Below, in pieces: positions 14,373 to 62,601 of a stretch of DNA of 64,000 nucleotides. The notes beneath the pieces were generated by a model that was not told the origin of the DNA, ran no database searches, and saw only the letters and a list, made by a program, of their open reading frames with translations. The stretch's first letter is position 1. Each line of letters starts with the position of its first letter. Location: positions 992,001 to 1,056,000 of the forward strand of contig NC_021169.1 in the NCBI RefSeq assembly GCF_000385565.1. Reading direction: 5' to 3'. The stretch is from Archaeoglobus sulfaticallidus PM70-1 (GTDB taxonomy: Archaea > Halobacteriota > Archaeoglobi > Archaeoglobales > Archaeoglobaceae). The position numbers and the translations under genes are program-made.

Positions 14373-14445
14373 GCCACGGTAGCTCAGCAGGCAGAGCGCG
14401 TGCTTGGTAAGCACGAGGTCCCGGGTTCAATTCCCGGCCGTGGCT
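14373..14445 (+). tRNA. tRNA-Thr (anticodon GGT)
   Basis: A complete 73-base cloverleaf. Acceptor stem GCCACGG/CCGTGGC (14373-14379 with 14438-14444), D stem GCTC/GAGC, anticodon stem CGTGC/GCACG with loop TTGGTAA (14404-14410), anticodon GGT at 14406-14408 reading ACC, T stem CCGGG/CCCGG with loop TTCAATT, discriminator T at 14445 as usual for archaeal tRNA-Thr. There is no intron and CCA is not encoded. CGAAAGTATTTTAA at 14329-14342 looks like its BRE/TATA. Confidence 0.97.
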
Positions 14446-54860: not shown

Positions 54861-55078
54861 TGATGTTCGTTGCTGTAAGGGGTTTAAATTTGTTTGTAAG
54901 TGTAAGCTCAAACGGTTGCCGGTTCCGGGTAGATTCTTGACATGAATCTGGAAGTGGAAATTGGACAATTCAGGAATTGGACAATTGATGGTGAGTGGAA
55001 AGAAAGATACTGGTATCCGACATGTTCTTTAAAGTATAAAACAGCAAAATTATTAAGTATTAATCTTGTATATTGTTC

Positions 55079-57400
55079 ATGGATAGGGTTAACAAACTCA
55101 TAACCAATATCCAGAAACCCCCAAGACTCAGCATAGAAAGATGCGTGCTTTATACGGAGTCGATGAAGGAGACAGAAGGCGAACCGATGCCGATCAGGCA
55201 GGCAAAGGCTTTGAAACACATTCTTGAAAACATTCCAGTTCAGATTCTCCCTCATGAGATTGTTGTCGGCACGATGCTCCCGGATCCTCCTGGGGCAATC
55301 CTCTTCCCCGAAGGTGTGGGATTGAGGATAATCAACGAACTTGAAAGTCTACCATCCAGAGAAACAAACAGACTTATTGTAAGGGAGGAGGACGCAAGAA
55401 TTCTGAGAGAGGAAATTGCCCCATACTGGCAGAGCAGAAACATCGAGGCATTCGCCTCACAACTCATGCCAGAAATAATAGAGGTTCTCTATACTGGATC
55501 TGTTTTTGTTTTAACGGAATTCGCCGGCATATCCCATATTGCAGTAAATTACCCATATCTCCTGAAGAGGGGTTTCAGGTGGTTTATTGAAGAAAGCAGA
55601 AGGAATGTTGTCGAGCTTGAAGATAACGGGTGCTGGGATGCCCCCAAGCTGGTGTTTTACAAAACCGCTGAAATTGTCAGCGAGGCAATGATAAGCTATG
55701 CAAACAGGTATGCAAAGCTCGCAGAGAAGATGGCTGATGAAGCGGATGACGAAAGACGGGAGGAGCTCTTGAGAATTGCTGAAATTTGCAGGAGAGTTCC
55801 GGCAGAGAAGCCTGAGAGCTTTCATGAGGCTGTACAGTTTGTCTGGTTTGTTCAGTCTGCCCTTCATCAGGAAAACTATGAACAGGGAATTTCAATGGGA
55901 AGAATTGACCAGTATCTGCTACCGTACTACCTGAAAGATCTCAAAGAAGGGCGAATTGACAGGAAACAGGCTTTCGAGATTCTGGCAAATCTATGGATTA
56001 AGACGAACGAGATCGTCCCACCATTCGACTCTCTCCTTGAGCTTTATTTCTCGGGACAGGCGACGAATCAGGCACTGACGATTGGTGGAATTGATGCAAA
56101 CGGAAATGATGCGACAAACGATCTCTCCTACCTCATGCTTGAGGTCACAAAGGCTGTACCATTGAGACAGCCAAATGTTCATGTCAGAGTTAGCTCAAAA
56201 ACCCCTGACAGCTTCTTAGATGTCCTGGCTGATCTTATCGCTGAAGGGAAAAACAACATAGGGATTTTTAATGATGAGGTGATCTTCAAAGCCCTTAGAT
56301 CTGCCGGTGTGGAGGAAGAAGATTTGTGGAACTATTCCACAGTAGGCTGCGTTGAGATTGCTCCTTTCGGGAACAGCTTCACATCCAGTGATGCTGCTTT
56401 AATAAACCTGGCTAAAGCCCTTGAATACGCTCTTAATGAGGGAACAGACATAATGTTCGGATACAGATTTGGCTTAGAGATCAAAAAACCTGAGAGTCTA
56501 GAGGAAGTTATAGATGCCTTCAGGAAGCAGCTTGCTCATATAATCAAGAAGGTGGTAAAAGGATCCAACATCCTTGAATATGCAAACGCAAGCGTTAAAC
56601 CCACACCATTACTTTCACTCTGTATCGAGGATTGCTTCGAGAAGGGCGTTGATGTTACATTGGGCGGAGCAAAGTACAACTTTACCGGCATACAGGCGGT
56701 AGGTATCGCTGATGTGGCGGATTCTCTCGCAGCGATAGAACTCGCTATAAAGAAGGGTTACAGCCTTGATGAGATCATCGAAGCGTGCAGAAGCAATTTC
56801 AATGGTTATGAAGAGCTCCGTTCCCTCCTCCTCAATGCACCCAAATACGGCAACGACAGCGAGGCGGACAGGTATGCTAAATTGGTTCTCGAAATGTACT
56901 GTGAAGAGGTCTCCAGATACAGAAATTTCAGGGGAGGAAGGTTTACCGCTGGCTGTTATCCGATGACAACGAATGTAGCCTTCGGCTTCATGACTTCTGC
57001 ATTGCCATCTGGCAGAATGCAGGGCAGCGCTTTAAACAGTGGAGTTTCACCAAGCACTGGAATGGATAGAGAAGGAGTAACAGCAGCGATAAAATCCGCA
57101 TGCAAGCTGAATTATGAGATGCTGTCAAACGGCTCATCTCTCACGGTCAATCTCGATTCCGGAATCCTGGGTGCCAAGGGAAAAGATGTTATAAAAGCCC
57201 TCATAAGGAGCTTTGTGGATCTTGGAGGTATGCACATTCAGTTTAATGTGCTCAATCAGGATCTGCTCAAGAAGGCTCAGGAAGAACCTGAAAAGTACAG
57301 GTGGCTGCTCGTTAGAGTTGCAGGATGGAGCGCATATTTCGTTGAACTTTCAAAGGCTGTTCAGGATGAGTTGATAGCAAGGATTTCCTGTAAGATGTGA
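55079..57400 (+). CDS. Glycyl radical enzyme (PFL2/dehydratase-like, substrate unknown)
   Basis: A 773-residue glycyl radical enzyme. Active-site Cys424 in STVGCVEIAPFGNSFTSSD; the following Val-Glu (CVE) places it with dehydratase/lyase types (glycerol or choline type), not pyruvate formate-lyase, which has two adjacent Cys. Radical Gly749 lies in LLVRVAGWSAYFVEL. The A. fulgidus relative PFL2 has a known structure but no assigned substrate. The dehydratase branch normally reads C-V-E-P; Ile replaces Pro here. Oxygen-sensitive, so the host is an anaerobe. Start ATG 55079; the activase begins two bases after the stop. Confidence 0.9.
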   Translation: MDRVNKLITNIQKPPRLSIERCVLYTESMKETEGEPMPIRQAKALKHILENIPVQILPHEIVVGTMLPDPPGAILFPEGVGLRIINELESLPSRETNRLIVREEDARILREEIAPYWQSRNIEAFASQLMPEIIEVLYTGSVFVLTEFAGISHIAVNYPYLLKRGFRWFIEESRRNVVELEDNGCWDAPKLVFYKTAEIVSEAMISYANRYAKLAEKMADEADDERREELLRIAEICRRVPAEKPESFHEAVQFVWFVQSALHQENYEQGISMGRIDQYLLPYYLKDLKEGRIDRKQAFEILANLWIKTNEIVPPFDSLLELYFSGQATNQALTIGGIDANGNDATNDLSYLMLEVTKAVPLRQPNVHVRVSSKTPDSFLDVLADLIAEGKNNIGIFNDEVIFKALRSAGVEEEDLWNYSTVGCVEIAPFGNSFTSSDAALINLAKALEYALNEGTDIMFGYRFGLEIKKPESLEEVIDAFRKQLAHIIKKVVKGSNILEYANASVKPTPLLSLCIEDCFEKGVDVTLGGAKYNFTGIQAVGIADVADSLAAIELAIKKGYSLDEIIEACRSNFNGYEELRSLLLNAPKYGNDSEADRYAKLVLEMYCEEVSRYRNFRGGRFTAGCYPMTTNVAFGFMTSALPSGRMQGSALNSGVSPSTGMDREGVTAAIKSACKLNYEMLSNGSSLTVNLDSGILGAKGKDVIKALIRSFVDLGGMHIQFNVLNQDLLKKAQEEPEKYRWLLVRVAGWSAYFVELSKAVQDELIARISCKM

Positions 57401-57402
57401 TT

Positions 57403-58302
57403 ATGAAGGGCAGAATCTTCAGAATCCAGCGTTTCTCGATCCACGATGGGTATGGCATAAGAACCACAGTATTTCTGAAAGGGTGCCCCCTCAGATGCGT
57501 GTGGTGCCATAACCCGGAGTCTCAGCGATTTGATATTGATCTGGCTTATAGAGAGGATATGTGTACTGGCTGCTTAAGTTGCATCGAGGTATGTGAGAGA
57601 GATGCTCTTCTCTGGGAAGGTGAAAGAGTATCGGTAAACAGCGATCTCTGTAACGGCTGTGGAGCGTGTGTGGAGAACTGTAGCAACAATGCACTTATCC
57701 TATATGGATACGATATAGAGGCGGAAGATGTGATCAGAGAGGTTGAAAAGGATTTGATTTTTTACAGGAATTCCAGCGGTGGTGTAACATTCTCGGGTGG
57801 AGAGCCGTACTTCCAGACTGATTTTCTCCTTGAGCTGCTGAGGCTGTGTCGGGAGAGGGGGATCAGCACGGCTGTTGACACCTCTGGATACACACGATGG
57901 GAGAACATCGAGAAGAGTTTGAACCTCGTCGACCTCTTTCTCTACGATTTGAAAGATTACGACAGTCAGAGACATCTGAGATTTACTGGAGTTGATAACA
58001 GAACTATTCTGGAGAATCTCGAAAAACTGGTTAAGACCGCAGAGGTTGTTGTGCGAATACCATTCATTCCATCATGCAACTTTCAGAGTGAAAGGGACTT
58101 TCAGGGGTTCCTTGAATTGCTGATAAAGCTGGATGTGGAAAGAGTGGACGTGCTGCCGTATCATTCTTTATCTCGGGACAAGTACAGGTGGCTTGACATG
58201 GAATTTTATGATGTCAGGGATAAGTTAAAACCAAACCATGAAGACTTTGCCGATATGATCCGGAATGCGGGCTTCAAAGTAAGTACTGGTGGATACTTCT
58301 GA
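57403..58302 (+). CDS. Glycyl radical enzyme activase (radical SAM)
   Basis: A 299-residue radical-SAM protein that abstracts hydrogen from the Gly of the partner enzyme. FLKGCPLRCVWCHNPES near 23-39 has the C-x3-C-x2-C cluster for SAM. Residues 53-100 insert two ferredoxin motifs (CTGCLSCIEVCERDAL and CNGCGACVENCSNNAL) as in the glycerol/choline-type activases, not in PflA, supporting the dehydratase assignment of the partner. GGVTFSGGEPYFQ near 125 and DLFLYDLKDYDSQRHLRFTG near 180 complete the fold. Encoded directly downstream of the partner and surely co-transcribed. Confidence 0.93.
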   Translation: MKGRIFRIQRFSIHDGYGIRTTVFLKGCPLRCVWCHNPESQRFDIDLAYREDMCTGCLSCIEVCERDALLWEGERVSVNSDLCNGCGACVENCSNNALILYGYDIEAEDVIREVEKDLIFYRNSSGGVTFSGGEPYFQTDFLLELLRLCRERGISTAVDTSGYTRWENIEKSLNLVDLFLYDLKDYDSQRHLRFTGVDNRTILENLEKLVKTAEVVVRIPFIPSCNFQSERDFQGFLELLIKLDVERVDVLPYHSLSRDKYRWLDMEFYDVRDKLKPNHEDFADMIRNAGFKVSTGGYF

Positions 58303-59007: not shown

Positions 59008-59394
59008 TTAGATTGTCCTAATATAAAGCTGTCGTAATATCGAATAGAATCCGTCAATACTACTTATCTGCTCTTTTTCGAGTTCTTTTACTATTTCTTC
59101 CAATCTTTTTTTAGTTTCTAACCATTCGTCGAGCAGTTCATTTGCTTTATCTACATCTGTCACAATCCCATTTAAACTATCGACAGTCATGTATCTGTGT
59201 ATTTCAAAAATATCATCCTTCTTTATTAAAGCTCCATACACAAAAAAGTCATCTGCTACTTCGATAGTACCACCCGCTGGTATTGTTAGAGAACTAATCT
59301 TACCATCTATTTCCTCTTTTTTAGCTATCAAGCTTACAAACTCGTTTATTAATTCCAATATTTTTTCTGCATTCATAATATGTTTAGTGCTCAT
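59008..59394 (-). CDS. Hypothetical coiled-coil protein
   Basis: A 128-residue protein I do not recognise. Residues 1-35 and 80-128 are amphipathic helices (ILELINEFVSLIAKKEEID; LLDEWLETKKRLEEIVKELE) around a beta part with IPAGGTIEVADDFFVYGALIKKD near 37-59. The shape vaguely recalls prefoldin-like coiled-coil proteins. Its 5' side is directly joined to one of two 37-base direct repeats (59400-59436), which may supply its promoter. An ATG at 59373 (MNAEKILEL) could also be the start. Confidence 0.5.
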   Translation of the reverse strand: MSTKHIMNAEKILELINEFVSLIAKKEEIDGKISSLTIPAGGTIEVADDFFVYGALIKKDDIFEIHRYMTVDSLNGIVTDVDKANELLDEWLETKKRLEEIVKELEKEQISSIDGFYSILRQLYIRTI

Positions 59395-59399
59395 CTCAT

Positions 59400-59436
59400 G
59401 TTTAACTTTTACTACAACACTGAAACATTTCCTCCA
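59400..59436. repeat. 37-bp direct repeat, copy 1
   Basis: Begins GTTTAACTTTTACTA, continues ACTGAAACATTT and ends TCCAA; copy 2 at 59712-59748 differs at only about four positions. The offset is 312 bases. Copy 1 lies just before the start of the minus-strand ORF 59008-59394; read on the minus strand the TTGTAGTAAAAG part may act as promoter. Two copies are too few for a CRISPR. They bracket the candidate RNA gene. Confidence 0.7.
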
Positions 59437-59500
59437 ATCTTTCCAAAAATCTGGTCAAAGAAACTCTTCTACTACTTTTTCAATCCTAGGAAAGTATTAT

Positions 59501-59527
59501 TGACAACAATGTAAAATTAAGTTGTCA
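59501..59527. repeat. Inverted repeat TGACAAC/GTTGTCA upstream of the RNA candidate
   Basis: TGACAAC (59501-59507) and GTTGTCA (59521-59527) with a 13-base spacer, ending seven bases before the TATA-like box at 59534. The ten-base TATTGACAAC (59498-59507) also occurs inside the RNA candidate (59645-59654), so the motifs are related. It could be an operator or a further RNA hairpin. Confidence 0.4.
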
Positions 59528-59533
59528 GAAGTG

Positions 59534-59541
59534 TTATATAG
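59534..59541 (+). promoter_or_regulatory. TATA-like box for the candidate RNA gene
   Basis: TTATATAG centred at about 59537.5, preceded by AGAAG. Transcription would begin near 59560-59564, and the first base of the closing helix is 59561. The surroundings have no long ORF on the plus strand. Confidence 0.4.
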
Positions 59542-59560
59542 TGTGCCATCCTGTTGTATT

Positions 59561-59660
59561 AGAGGCGAAAGTTAAACCTTGAGTAACTGACGGATTTACT
59601 TGAGGAATAACTGAGGATGGATTAGCCATCCATTGTCAAAACCGTATTGACAACGCCTCT
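59561..59660 (+). ncRNA. Candidate structured RNA, multi-branch fold, no known family
   Basis: Four helices can form at the same time. Closing stem AGAGGCG (59561-59567) with CGCCTCT (59654-59660). Hairpin A CCTTGAGTAA (59577-59586) with TTACTTGAGG (59596-59605), using two G-U pairs that favour the plus strand. Hairpin B GGATGG/CCATCC (59615-59620, 59626-59631). Hairpin C TTGTCAA/TTGACAA (59633-59639, 59647-59653), directly stacked on the closing stem. TTTTT follows at 59671-59675. It has tRNA-like arrangement but no T-loop or anticodon match. It fits no tRNA, C/D, H/ACA or riboswitch pattern I know. Confidence 0.4.
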
Positions 59661-59670
59661 CACCTGGCTG

Positions 59671-59675
59671 TTTTT
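59671..59675 (+). terminator. T-run after the RNA candidate
   Basis: GTTTTTC ten bases after the closing helix. Archaeal RNA polymerase ends on T-runs, so this would define a transcript of about 110-115 bases. Confidence 0.3.
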
Positions 59676-59711
59676 CAATTAGAGGTTAATAATTCAAATT
59701 GTAAGCAACAA

Positions 59712-59748
59712 GTTTAACTTTTACTATAAAACTGAAACATTTTATCCA
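59712..59748. repeat. 37-bp direct repeat, copy 2
   Basis: Second copy of the repeat at 59400-59436 in the same orientation. On the minus strand it reads TTTTATAGTAAAAG, a better TATA box than in copy 1, but there is no ORF next to it. It closes the 312-base module with the candidate RNA. Confidence 0.7.
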
Positions 59749-59795
59749 AGTCATCTGCACAGCCCACCTCAGAAAAACCCTCTCTTGCCTCAATT

Positions 59796-59829
59796 CACAC
59801 TCCCCTTCTTTTTCAGCCTTTAAATACTC
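59796..59829 (+). promoter_or_regulatory. Promoter cassette, copy A
   Basis: CACACTCCCCTTC followed by TTTTTCAGCCTTTAAATACT. It matches copies at 60510 and 63752: a CACACCCC block, a T-rich BRE-like block and CTTTAWATACT as TATA. An ATG lies at 59851, 32 bases after the TTTA, but its frame closes after eight codons, so the gene it served is gone. Confidence 0.6.
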
Positions 59830-60054: not shown

Positions 60055-60324
60055 ATGGTCAAAATATCCGAGATCGATGCAAAATCGATGTGGGATAATA
60101 CAAAACAAGATCTTCCAGCGCATCAACGTATTCTAAGCGAAATAGTATTTTCTAATGCCGGTTCTCACAAAGTTTGCTGGATTTGTGGGAATGAGAAAGA
60201 CATCTTCTTGATATCTTCTGTTATGGATAATGGGAAGCAGATGCAAGCCATACTCTGTGAGAACTGCCTGATGATTCAGGAAAATACGGGTCTAAGAGTT
60301 GTTGAGAGTGAAAAGATAGAATAA
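60055..60324 (+). CDS. Hypothetical Zn-ribbon-like small protein
   Basis: An 89-residue protein with C-x2-C at HKVCWICGNEKDIF (near 40-53) and C-x2-C at AILCENCLMIQ (near 70-80), so a single zinc ribbon is likely. N-terminal helix DAKSMWDNTKQDLPAHQRILSEI. No family name. The leaderless TATA at 60026 supports a real gene. Confidence 0.55.
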   Translation: MVKISEIDAKSMWDNTKQDLPAHQRILSEIVFSNAGSHKVCWICGNEKDIFLISSVMDNGKQMQAILCENCLMIQENTGLRVVESEKIE

Positions 60325-60562: not shown

Positions 60563-61162
60563 ATGCTGGATTATTTATCTCCCATCCTGGTTGAAGCTCC
60601 CGACGATCCTAAGTACAAAAAGGAAAGAGGGCAAAAGGCAAGTCATAAGCGACCCTTCCGCATCTTTCGCCCTGTAGAATACGAGCTACTCAAGCAAGGA
60701 GCCAAGAAAAAAGAGCTCAACCTCGATGTACTCCTACTCACAGGACTCAGATATGAGGAGGCTCGCAGACTGCAACAGCACCCAGAGTGGTTCGACGGCA
60801 TATTTATCAGGATACCAGAGATGAAGGTGACAAGACGAAGAAAGCAGAGACAGAGATGAGGCTCAGCTTGATGGGAAGAAAATCTTGCCATTCTTCTTCG
60901 ACAACAAACCTCTTCCAGATCCACACACATGGAAAGAAAATCTCATGAGGTGGGCTGAGAAGGTTGGGCTGGATTCGAGAGGATTGGGGTGCCAAGACGA
61001 CGAGGAAGACCTGGGAAAGCTGGCTGATGTTTTACTTTCCGGAAAGAAGGATAGAAATCATACAGAGCACACACCCTTCTGACTGCTGTGGAACACTACC
61101 TCAACATGCCATTCACCGAGGACGATCACAGGTTGATGGAAAAGTATGTTCACGGGTGGTAG
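60563..61162 (+). pseudogene. Tyrosine recombinase/integrase, broken by several frameshifts
   Basis: The N-terminal frame (60563-60859) gives LDVLLLTGLRYEEARRLQ near residues 54-71 with the first catalytic Arg. Next comes KILPFFFDNKPLPDPHTWKE (from about 60878), then AKTTRKTWESWLMFYFPERR in another frame (60990s) and finally LLTAVEHYLNMPFTEDD and EKYVHGW in the third frame, ending at TAG 61160-61162. In correct order this is an archaeal integrase of about 200 residues, with at least three frame changes. It no longer makes a full enzyme. It points to a former integrative element here. Confidence 0.8.
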
Positions 61163-61432
61163 CTTTAAGCTGGTGCCCCCGAAGATGGCAGAGGTTGAGG
61201 TTCAAAGTTCTGAAGAGAGACTAATTTACTTGTCAAACTGTGGCAGAACTGTGGTTTTGGAGGTTCAAAAATGGAAGATATTTACTGAGTGAAAAGCATC
61301 GATGAATCATTACATGCAGCTACCCTCCTCCAAGACTGAGAAAGAAGAGAGAACTGCTAGTGGAGTGTTCGGATAAAAGACATCTTTAAATAATAACGTA
61401 AAATTAATAGGGGATTCAATAGATCATTCTCT

Positions 61433-62601
61433 ATGAATCAACTTAGTTATGAAAAAGGAGTGGAACTTGAGAAATTGGTTGCACAACTTTTCAAGAGCAA
61501 GGGTTACGATGTCATGCATAATGTCAAACTTAAAGGCCGTTCGGGTGTTGAACATCAGATCGATGTTTATGCAGAGTACAAATGCCCACTCCATCTTTCA
61601 AGAATAGTAATTGAGTGCAAGGCGTATGATACCCCTATCAACAAAGATATCGTTATGAAACTTATACAGGAGGTCCTAGATCTGGGAGTAGATAGGGGTA
61701 TTCTTGTTACGACTTCTTATTTCACACCAGATGCCGTTTCAACAGCGAATGGGTACAATGTGGATCTATGGGACTACACGAAGCTGACAAGTCTTGTGGG
61801 AAATATAGAACTCCCAAGTGTCGAGCCAGTTAGCAACGTTTTTTACATCGAACCCAAACTCTCAGCCGAGCAAAGCAAAAAAGTAGCAGAGAAGCAAGTT
61901 AGGGGTTATTTAGAAGGGGAAAAGTACTGGAACTCATTACGGTGTTTTACCCATATTATGATTTTGATTGCGACGTTGCGATAACGGAAATCAGGGGACT
62001 ATTGAAGAAGAAGTCCGAAGTAAAAATTGTCAAAGCTAAATTAACTGTTGACGCGTGCATAAATGCCCTTGTGAGTGCTCAAAGAGAAAGTGTTAAGCTG
62101 ATTCTGCACGTACCACAAAAAATCTCGGACGCTGAAGCTGAAGCTTTTAAACTACTATTGACGATGGATTCCCTTACTGTTGCTAGTTTAGCCTCGCTGC
62201 TGAGTTGCTCTGAGGCAAAAGCAAGAAAACTCCTTCAAGGCTTAACTGCAAGGGGGTTGGCCAGGCAGGTAAAGGTCGGAAGGCAGATTCAATATGAACC
62301 CGGAGTAAATATCCCGCATCCATCGGCTTTGGCAGGAATTTCAATGCTCTACGAACTGAAGGACGGTGAACCAGTTGGTGAGAAGCTGCTACCGCCATCT
62401 ATTAGTGTGAATGATGCCGAGAGAATGCTAAAGATGATCTGGGATGTCAAACTAAGCGACTATCGCTTGGTTTACTACCCATACCACATATGGAAGACAT
62501 ACGAAGGGGGCAAGGAAGGTATAGTCGCGGTGGATGCGCTCACAGGAAACGTTAACGACTTCGTCAGTAAACTCTTGGCCAAAACAATACTCTTTCATTA
62601 G
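61433..62601 (+). pseudogene. Mrr-like restriction endonuclease fused to a helix-turn-helix part, split by a frameshift
   Basis: First frame 61433-61984: YEKGVELEKLVAQLFKSKGYDV, catalytic HQIDVYAEY … RIVIECKAYD near 43-65 (PD-(D/E)xK core), ILVTTSYFTPDA near 95. After GYLEGEK, near 61920, the frame must move by -1, giving KVLELITVFYPYYDFD and a C-terminal part with LTVASLASLLSCSEAKARKLLQGL (helix-turn-helix near 62180-62260) to TAG 62601. GGGGAAAA at the junction invites slipping, but I see no standard shift site. Joined length about 389 residues. A single-base error or mutation; may still be functional if an assembly mistake. Confidence 0.7.

Follow-up and report, generated by a model that had tools for sequence, protein, structure and literature searches.

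Results

Features of the locus

The window, i.e. the whole stretch of 64,000 nucleotides that was analyzed (G000:C1:992001-1056000), belongs to a single-contig genome of 2,076,931 bp, the length given for the published genome of Archaeoglobus sulfaticallidus PM70-1T (PMC3703591). Genes for a PFL-like glycyl-radical enzyme and an adjoining radical-SAM activase (55073-58302) are followed by a minus-strand gene (59008-59394) for an orphan protein of 128 amino acids, which has no Pfam match and no relatives at the other RNA loci examined, and by a plus-strand structured RNA gene, whose transcript is predicted to run from about 59561 to about 59675. Further downstream lies what appears to be a broken gene for a tyrosine recombinase (integrase), divided between frames (60563-61224); it was called by its resemblance to an intact one at locus L108, its fragments having no Pfam match. 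Next come genes for an Mrr-type restriction endonuclease (61433-61984) and for a TrmB-type regulator (61942-62601), and a decayed mobile element is thus apparent downstream of the RNA gene. A 41-bp direct repeat (88%) is present on either side of the RNA gene (59397-59437 and 59709-59749). The motif recurs in the vicinity of tyrosine-recombinase genes elsewhere (G000:1202323 and G004:C34:15812), indicating that the repeats are probably regulatory or end sequences of an integrase-bearing element. We considered them as ends of an RNA-bearing element and rejected this, as the motif goes with the decayed integrase and not with the RNA. The features of the RNA gene are collected in Table 1.

Table 1. 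The RNA gene in the window and its upstream block (window positions).
Feature	Position	Strand	Basis and remarks
Structured RNA gene	59561-59660	+	match to covariance model R1 at 59561-59665, 105 bits; fold z = -7.1; covariation
Closing stem P1, 5' strand	59561-59567	+	pairs with 59654-59660; 98.4% of cells paired; double changes in 3 of 6 modelled pairs
Closing stem P1, 3' strand	59654-59660	+	folding; partner of 59561-59567
Hairpin A	59570-59612	+	59570-59574/59608-59612 plus 59577-59586/59596-59605; double changes in 12 of 16 modelled pairs
Hairpin B	59615-59631	+	59615-59620/59626-59631, 6 bp; double changes in 5 of 6 pairs
Hairpin C	59633-59653	+	59633-59639/59647-59653, 7 bp, loop AACCGUA; double changes in 5 of 8 modelled pairs
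ACGG, hairpin A loop	59590-59593	+	could pair with CCGU of the hairpin C loop, type A only
CCGU, hairpin C loop	59642-59645	+	possible partner of ACGG in the hairpin A loop
T-run, presumed terminator	59671-59675	+	read from sequence
Type-A promoter block TATTGACAACAATGTAAAATTAAGTTGTCAGAAGTGTTATATA	59498-59540	+	kept as a unit in type-A copies; mean pairwise identity 0.72-0.91 versus 0.2-0.4 outside the unit
Dyad TTGACAAC / GTTGTCA	59500-59507 / 59521-59527		candidate regulator site; sequence
TATA box TTATATA	59534-59540	+	read from sequence

Fold, strand and covariation

The sequence-only reading of this DNA had proposed four mutually compatible helices of 7, 10, 6 and 7 bp between 59561 and 59660, and all of them were recovered here by inspection of the sequence and by folding. 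The 10-bp stem of hairpin A stood, but five pairs at its base had been overlooked, so that the hairpin comprises about 15 pairs; these basal pairs are among the best conserved. The 100-nt segment folds at -38.0 kcal/mol, compared with a mean of -17.4 ± 2.9 kcal/mol for dinucleotide shuffles (z-score in Table 1), and for the copy in a genome presumed to be that of A. profundus z reaches -12.8. Folding of single sequences gave the same four helices in most other copies, the exceptions being the copy of G002 and a broken copy described below.

In an alignment of 21 copies, which was made with the covariance model and hence leans towards the structure, 96.7% of the pair positions stay paired and 25 of the 36 pairs show compensatory double changes (123 cells), the opposite of the one-sided helix changes in relatives that had been named beforehand as evidence against the RNA. 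None of 500 shuffles was as good, and sliding the partners by 1-3 columns lowered the pairing to 35-52%. Double changes were found in 11 of 36 pairs in a MAFFT alignment of the type-A copies that was fitted to no model. Effect size, slid controls and this unfitted alignment agree on the predicted structure. The assignment to the plus strand was likewise right: G-U pairs make up 99 of the 721 pair cells among the homologues and are lost if the RNA is read on the minus strand, where 84.7% of the cells pair compared with 96.7% on the plus strand (21 homologues).

At the level of the aligned sequences, the comparison demonstrates four helices arranged as a junction, with hairpins A, B and C enclosed by P1; the helices vary by compensatory substitution and the linkers are kept. 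The linkers GAA (between P1 and hairpin A) and GA (between hairpins A and B) are retained in nearly all copies, and hairpin B, hairpin C and P1 abut without spacer. Pairing between the loop motifs ACGG and CCGU is possible in eight of the nine type-A copies; the ninth breaks one pair and none compensates. Kissing loops that could fold hairpin A against hairpin C in type A are therefore considered a lead that covariation does not support.

Homologues and subtypes

A DNA search of 40 genomes returned the unit of about 175 bp in seven genomes of two genera. The covariance search of archaeal genomes that the sequence-only reading had suggested was run with a model (R1) built from nine type-A copies; it detected 22 copies, spread over 14 of 55 Archaeoglobaceae genomes (6 genera, E from 1e-28 to 7e-6), with compensatory changes present. 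The same 22 copies were recovered with a second covariance model (R2), which found no copy outside Archaeoglobaceae in a 345-genome sample of the phylum, although all covariance scans pass a first-look filter and may miss remote relatives. Rescanning 39 hitless genomes as a smaller set (stricter filters apply only above 40 genomes) yielded no copy, and the complete genome G040, presumed to be that of A. fulgidus, has no covariance model match. The claim of a structured RNA gene is thus borne out by covarying homologues and a kept TATA box, not as one RNA but as a dispersed multi-copy family.

No match to the RNA was obtained in phage records, plasmid records or viral contigs, and a link to viruses or plasmids was rejected. 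Viral contigs matching an 18-mer of the promoter contain no RNA match. Bacterial matches to the DNA pattern (Dolichospermum and others) were put down to chance, their best model score being 17 bits.

The family falls into four subtypes, A-D. Type A (genera g1 and g9) includes the window copy and is marked by an upstream block of 43 bp, whose conserved part ahead of the TATA box is operator-like. Hairpins A and C are longer in type B (g1, g2, g4 and g12), and type C is represented by one copy. Besides the window copy, the A. sulfaticallidus genome holds two full-length copies, of type B at 832431-832552 and of type C at 827762-827863 (both on the minus strand at locus L048 and separated by 4.7 kb), and a damaged second type-A copy at 324876-325058 that lacks part of the 5' strand; selection on this broken copy is weak because the 5' part of its structure is lost, a point that counts against an RNA acting in trans. 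At L048, L049 and L053, a degenerate tRNA-Phe-like sequence (anticodon loop CTGAAGA) was noted on the strand opposite to the type-B RNA and upstream of it, at a distance of about 100-250 bases; it was read by eye in G000, G001 and G043 and is not called by ARAGORN or Rfam.

Type D (genus g5) bears a canonical tRNA T-arm directly 3' of P1 (GCCTCC-TCCGGGTTCGAATCCCGGGGTACCA), with the 5-bp stem and the loop TTCRANT by which t-elements are recognized. The arm reads CCGGG-TTCGAAT-CCCGG in G009 and in both copies of G048, and the same with one G-U pair in G020; this near constancy across four copies suggests that it is functional. Its origin as the scar of a tRNA attachment site was rejected, as the complete genome G009 has no other copy of the tRNA 3' end (up to 2 mismatches) and no matching tRNA 3' end adjoins.

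Promoter and upstream block

The TATA-like box centred 24 bases before the first paired base and the downstream T-run, which had been read earlier as the two ends of a transcription unit, are both present (Table 1), and pyrimidine- or T-rich stretches are found 3' of several other copies. Of 21 testable copies, 20 have a TATA-like box at a distance of 22-31 bases ahead of the first P1 base, compared with 0.4% of background windows; the pattern was picked after the sequences had been seen, but the excess is nonetheless very large. The core of the upstream block occurs at two sites of the genome only, each beside a type-A copy of the RNA. The edges of conservation are sharp (promoter block 0.72-0.91, spacer 0.54, RNA 0.61-0.90, flanks 0.2-0.45), and this profile with two peaks, promoter block and RNA, fits what would be expected of a small transcription unit.

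Most type-A copies retain TGACA...TGTCA, and this dyad may be the binding site of a regulator. The sequence-only reading had also pointed to TATTGACAAC, shared by hairpin C and a repeat just upstream of the RNA. The sharing is real (59498-59507 and 59645-59654) but looks coincidental, because in relatives the hairpin arm changes to TTGGCAAT and the upstream TGACA/TGTCA dyad is mostly kept.

Family assignment

Rfam, ARAGORN and motif checks agree with the earlier statement that the RNA matches no tRNA, box C/D, H/ACA or riboswitch pattern. Rfam 15 assigned no family at the RNA locus; at E up to 10, two sub-threshold minus-strand matches appeared at 59345-59434 and 59767-59823, both outside the RNA. 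Neither ARAGORN nor Rfam called a tRNA or tmRNA at the locus, the sole one in the window being a tRNA-Thr at 14373. As to box C/D RNAs, RUGAUGA is absent from the window copy and from the region near the 5' end of the others, and the one conserved CUGA is that of the A/B linker. As to H/ACA RNAs, the 3' flank of P1 is unconserved and the copies have no ACA in common. A search of the available papers found no description of the RNA family. Because the fold covaries, the TATA box is kept and Rfam has no match, we take these genes to form an uncatalogued Archaeoglobaceae family of stand-alone structured RNA genes, in all likelihood a new family within a known kind.

Genomic contexts, apparent copying of the unit and alternative explanations

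Gene neighbours differ between most copies, so that there is no common downstream gene to control in cis, and a comparison of neighbours across loci found no partner gene adjoining all copies. Apparent copying of the unit was seen most clearly in genome G013. Its copy G013a shares one old locus with G005a (88% across 793 bp that take in the neighbouring gene), and G013b matches G013a at 96.6% identity from -73 to +103 exactly (177 bp, promoter and RNA), with unrelated flanks and nothing shared outside. Even the loose spacer between TATA box and P1 is nearly identical in the two. It is therefore unlikely that a longer stretch was duplicated and its flanks then decayed; the match is due either to precise copying of the unit or to homogenization of the copies by gene conversion. 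What the copy G048b has in common with the rest of type D is limited to the stretch from about -4 to +140, so that it begins at the predicted start site (-4/-5), and it has no TATA box. Furthermore, four of 15 independent places lie less than 0.7 kb from an intact tRNA gene (p about 0.002, the distance having been chosen afterwards): tRNA-Arg GCG (G002/G004a), tRNA-Glu (G009/G020), tRNA-Met (G050/G006) and an intron-containing tRNA (G001a).

Precise copying, the promoterless G048b and the proximity to tRNA genes are leads towards a non-autonomous mobile cassette (MITE- or SINE-like), in which promoter and RNA would be copied as a unit and the structure would serve its own spread and not the host. 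The T-arm of type D fits this as well, and the patchy distribution (14 of 55 genomes) together with the cassette-like copying, which also fit a mobile element, count against an RNA acting in trans. We nevertheless consider a mobile cassette rather unlikely: at the search settings used, no MITE-type terminal inverted repeats flank the window copy, no target-site duplication was seen (by eye, at the G013b copy only), genomes hold at most four copies, compensatory evolution is strong, and the type-B copies of three genera share a homologous neighbour gene, which we take to be UPF0182-like. Gene conversion between old paralogues could equally yield the sharp edges. Less probable still is a version in which a tRNA-associated 177-bp unit spreads in Archaeoglobaceae, gained the T-arm in one lineage and underwent SINE-like promoterless, RNA-templated insertion at least once.

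Many of the archaeal small RNAs that have been studied act as guides or in antisense, and in type A the loops ACGG and AACCGUA hardly vary while their stems covary, as would suit hairpin loops that pair with mRNA or rRNA. The loops are short and vary between subtypes, however, no long unpaired stretch is conserved, and no snoRNA family of Rfam matches the RNA at E values up to 10, which renders an antisense or guide RNA quite improbable. A cis-acting leader or riboswitch is highly improbable: an acetyl-CoA synthetase-like gene (a name read from the gene sequence, not from a family search) starts 212 (G046) and 580 (G000c) bases downstream of two type-B copies on the same strand, which counts against an RNA acting in trans, but only these two copies precede such a gene, neighbour genes and orientation differ at most copies, the RNA has its own TATA box and pyrimidine-rich end, and the next plus-strand gene in the window starts at 60055, about 395 bases away.

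Discussion

Taken as a whole, the observations are best explained by a stand-alone noncoding RNA gene of about 100-115 nt from an uncatalogued Archaeoglobaceae family, whose product would act in trans and is likely the scaffold of an RNA-protein complex; we assign this reading, which is built on genome comparison, a probability of roughly 0.7. TBP and TFB at the TATA box would set a transcription start that coincides, exactly or nearly, with the first base of P1. A regulator may bind the upstream TGACA-N-TGTCA block of type A. The RNA would fold as a compact junction with its 3' end in the pyrimidine-rich stretch, and in type D (the veneficus group) tRNA-processing enzymes may trim the 3' end at the tRNA-like T-arm. 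The RNA itself would then act in trans. An RNA-protein scaffold appears most likely because conservation falls on the junction linkers and the paired architecture and not on any long single-stranded region of the antisense or guide type. What the subtypes share is the junction with its four-helix plan and not the loop sequences. This argues against a guide or antisense function and for a rigid RNA recognized by its shape, and thus for a decoy or an RNA-protein complex.

To our knowledge, few archaeal families of structured RNAs with unknown function have been described. With 22 copies, 25 covarying pairs and a fixed promoter, the present one is defined well enough for an Rfam entry and for testing. 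It appears to be present in several species that are in culture, namely A. sulfaticallidus, A. profundus, A. veneficus and a Geoglobus. Two features are unusual for a stand-alone structured small RNA, the T-arm subtype and the precise, cassette-like copying of promoter and RNA; they raise questions on the spread of small RNA genes and on 3'-end formation in archaea.

The closing stem followed by CGAAGGU on its 5' strand is reminiscent of Y RNAs, some of which contain a tRNA-like part. Bacterial and animal Y RNAs are bound by Ro/Rsr, whereas no TROVE-domain protein (PF05731) was found in any of the 55 Archaeoglobaceae genomes by a search in which the positive control was detected, and a Y RNA reading of CGAAGGU and the T-arm was rejected. 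A set of intergenic, trans-encoded small RNAs of A. fulgidus was reportedly described by Tang et al. in 2002. Our family is like archaeal intergenic small RNAs in being a stand-alone intergenic RNA of the 50-500 nt range in the same archaeal family, and differs from the A. fulgidus set in its four-helix junction, its subtypes and its conserved promoter block, a distinction drawn by description only. The main earlier small-RNA screen in the genus Archaeoglobus was that of A. fulgidus (PMC3432209).

The t-elements, as known from Haloferax 5S rRNA, are tRNA-like structures next to other RNAs (PMC3296008, PMC4326828), and type D likewise ends in a canonical T-arm after P1. The family differs from t-elements in that its T-arm comes without acceptor, D or anticodon arm and is confined to genus g5, the window copy having none. 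Archaeal tRNase Z and RNase P cut t-elements (PMC3296008, PMC4326828), and the T-arm of type D, which takes the place of the pyrimidine-rich ends of the other types, would therefore most simply serve 3'-end processing.
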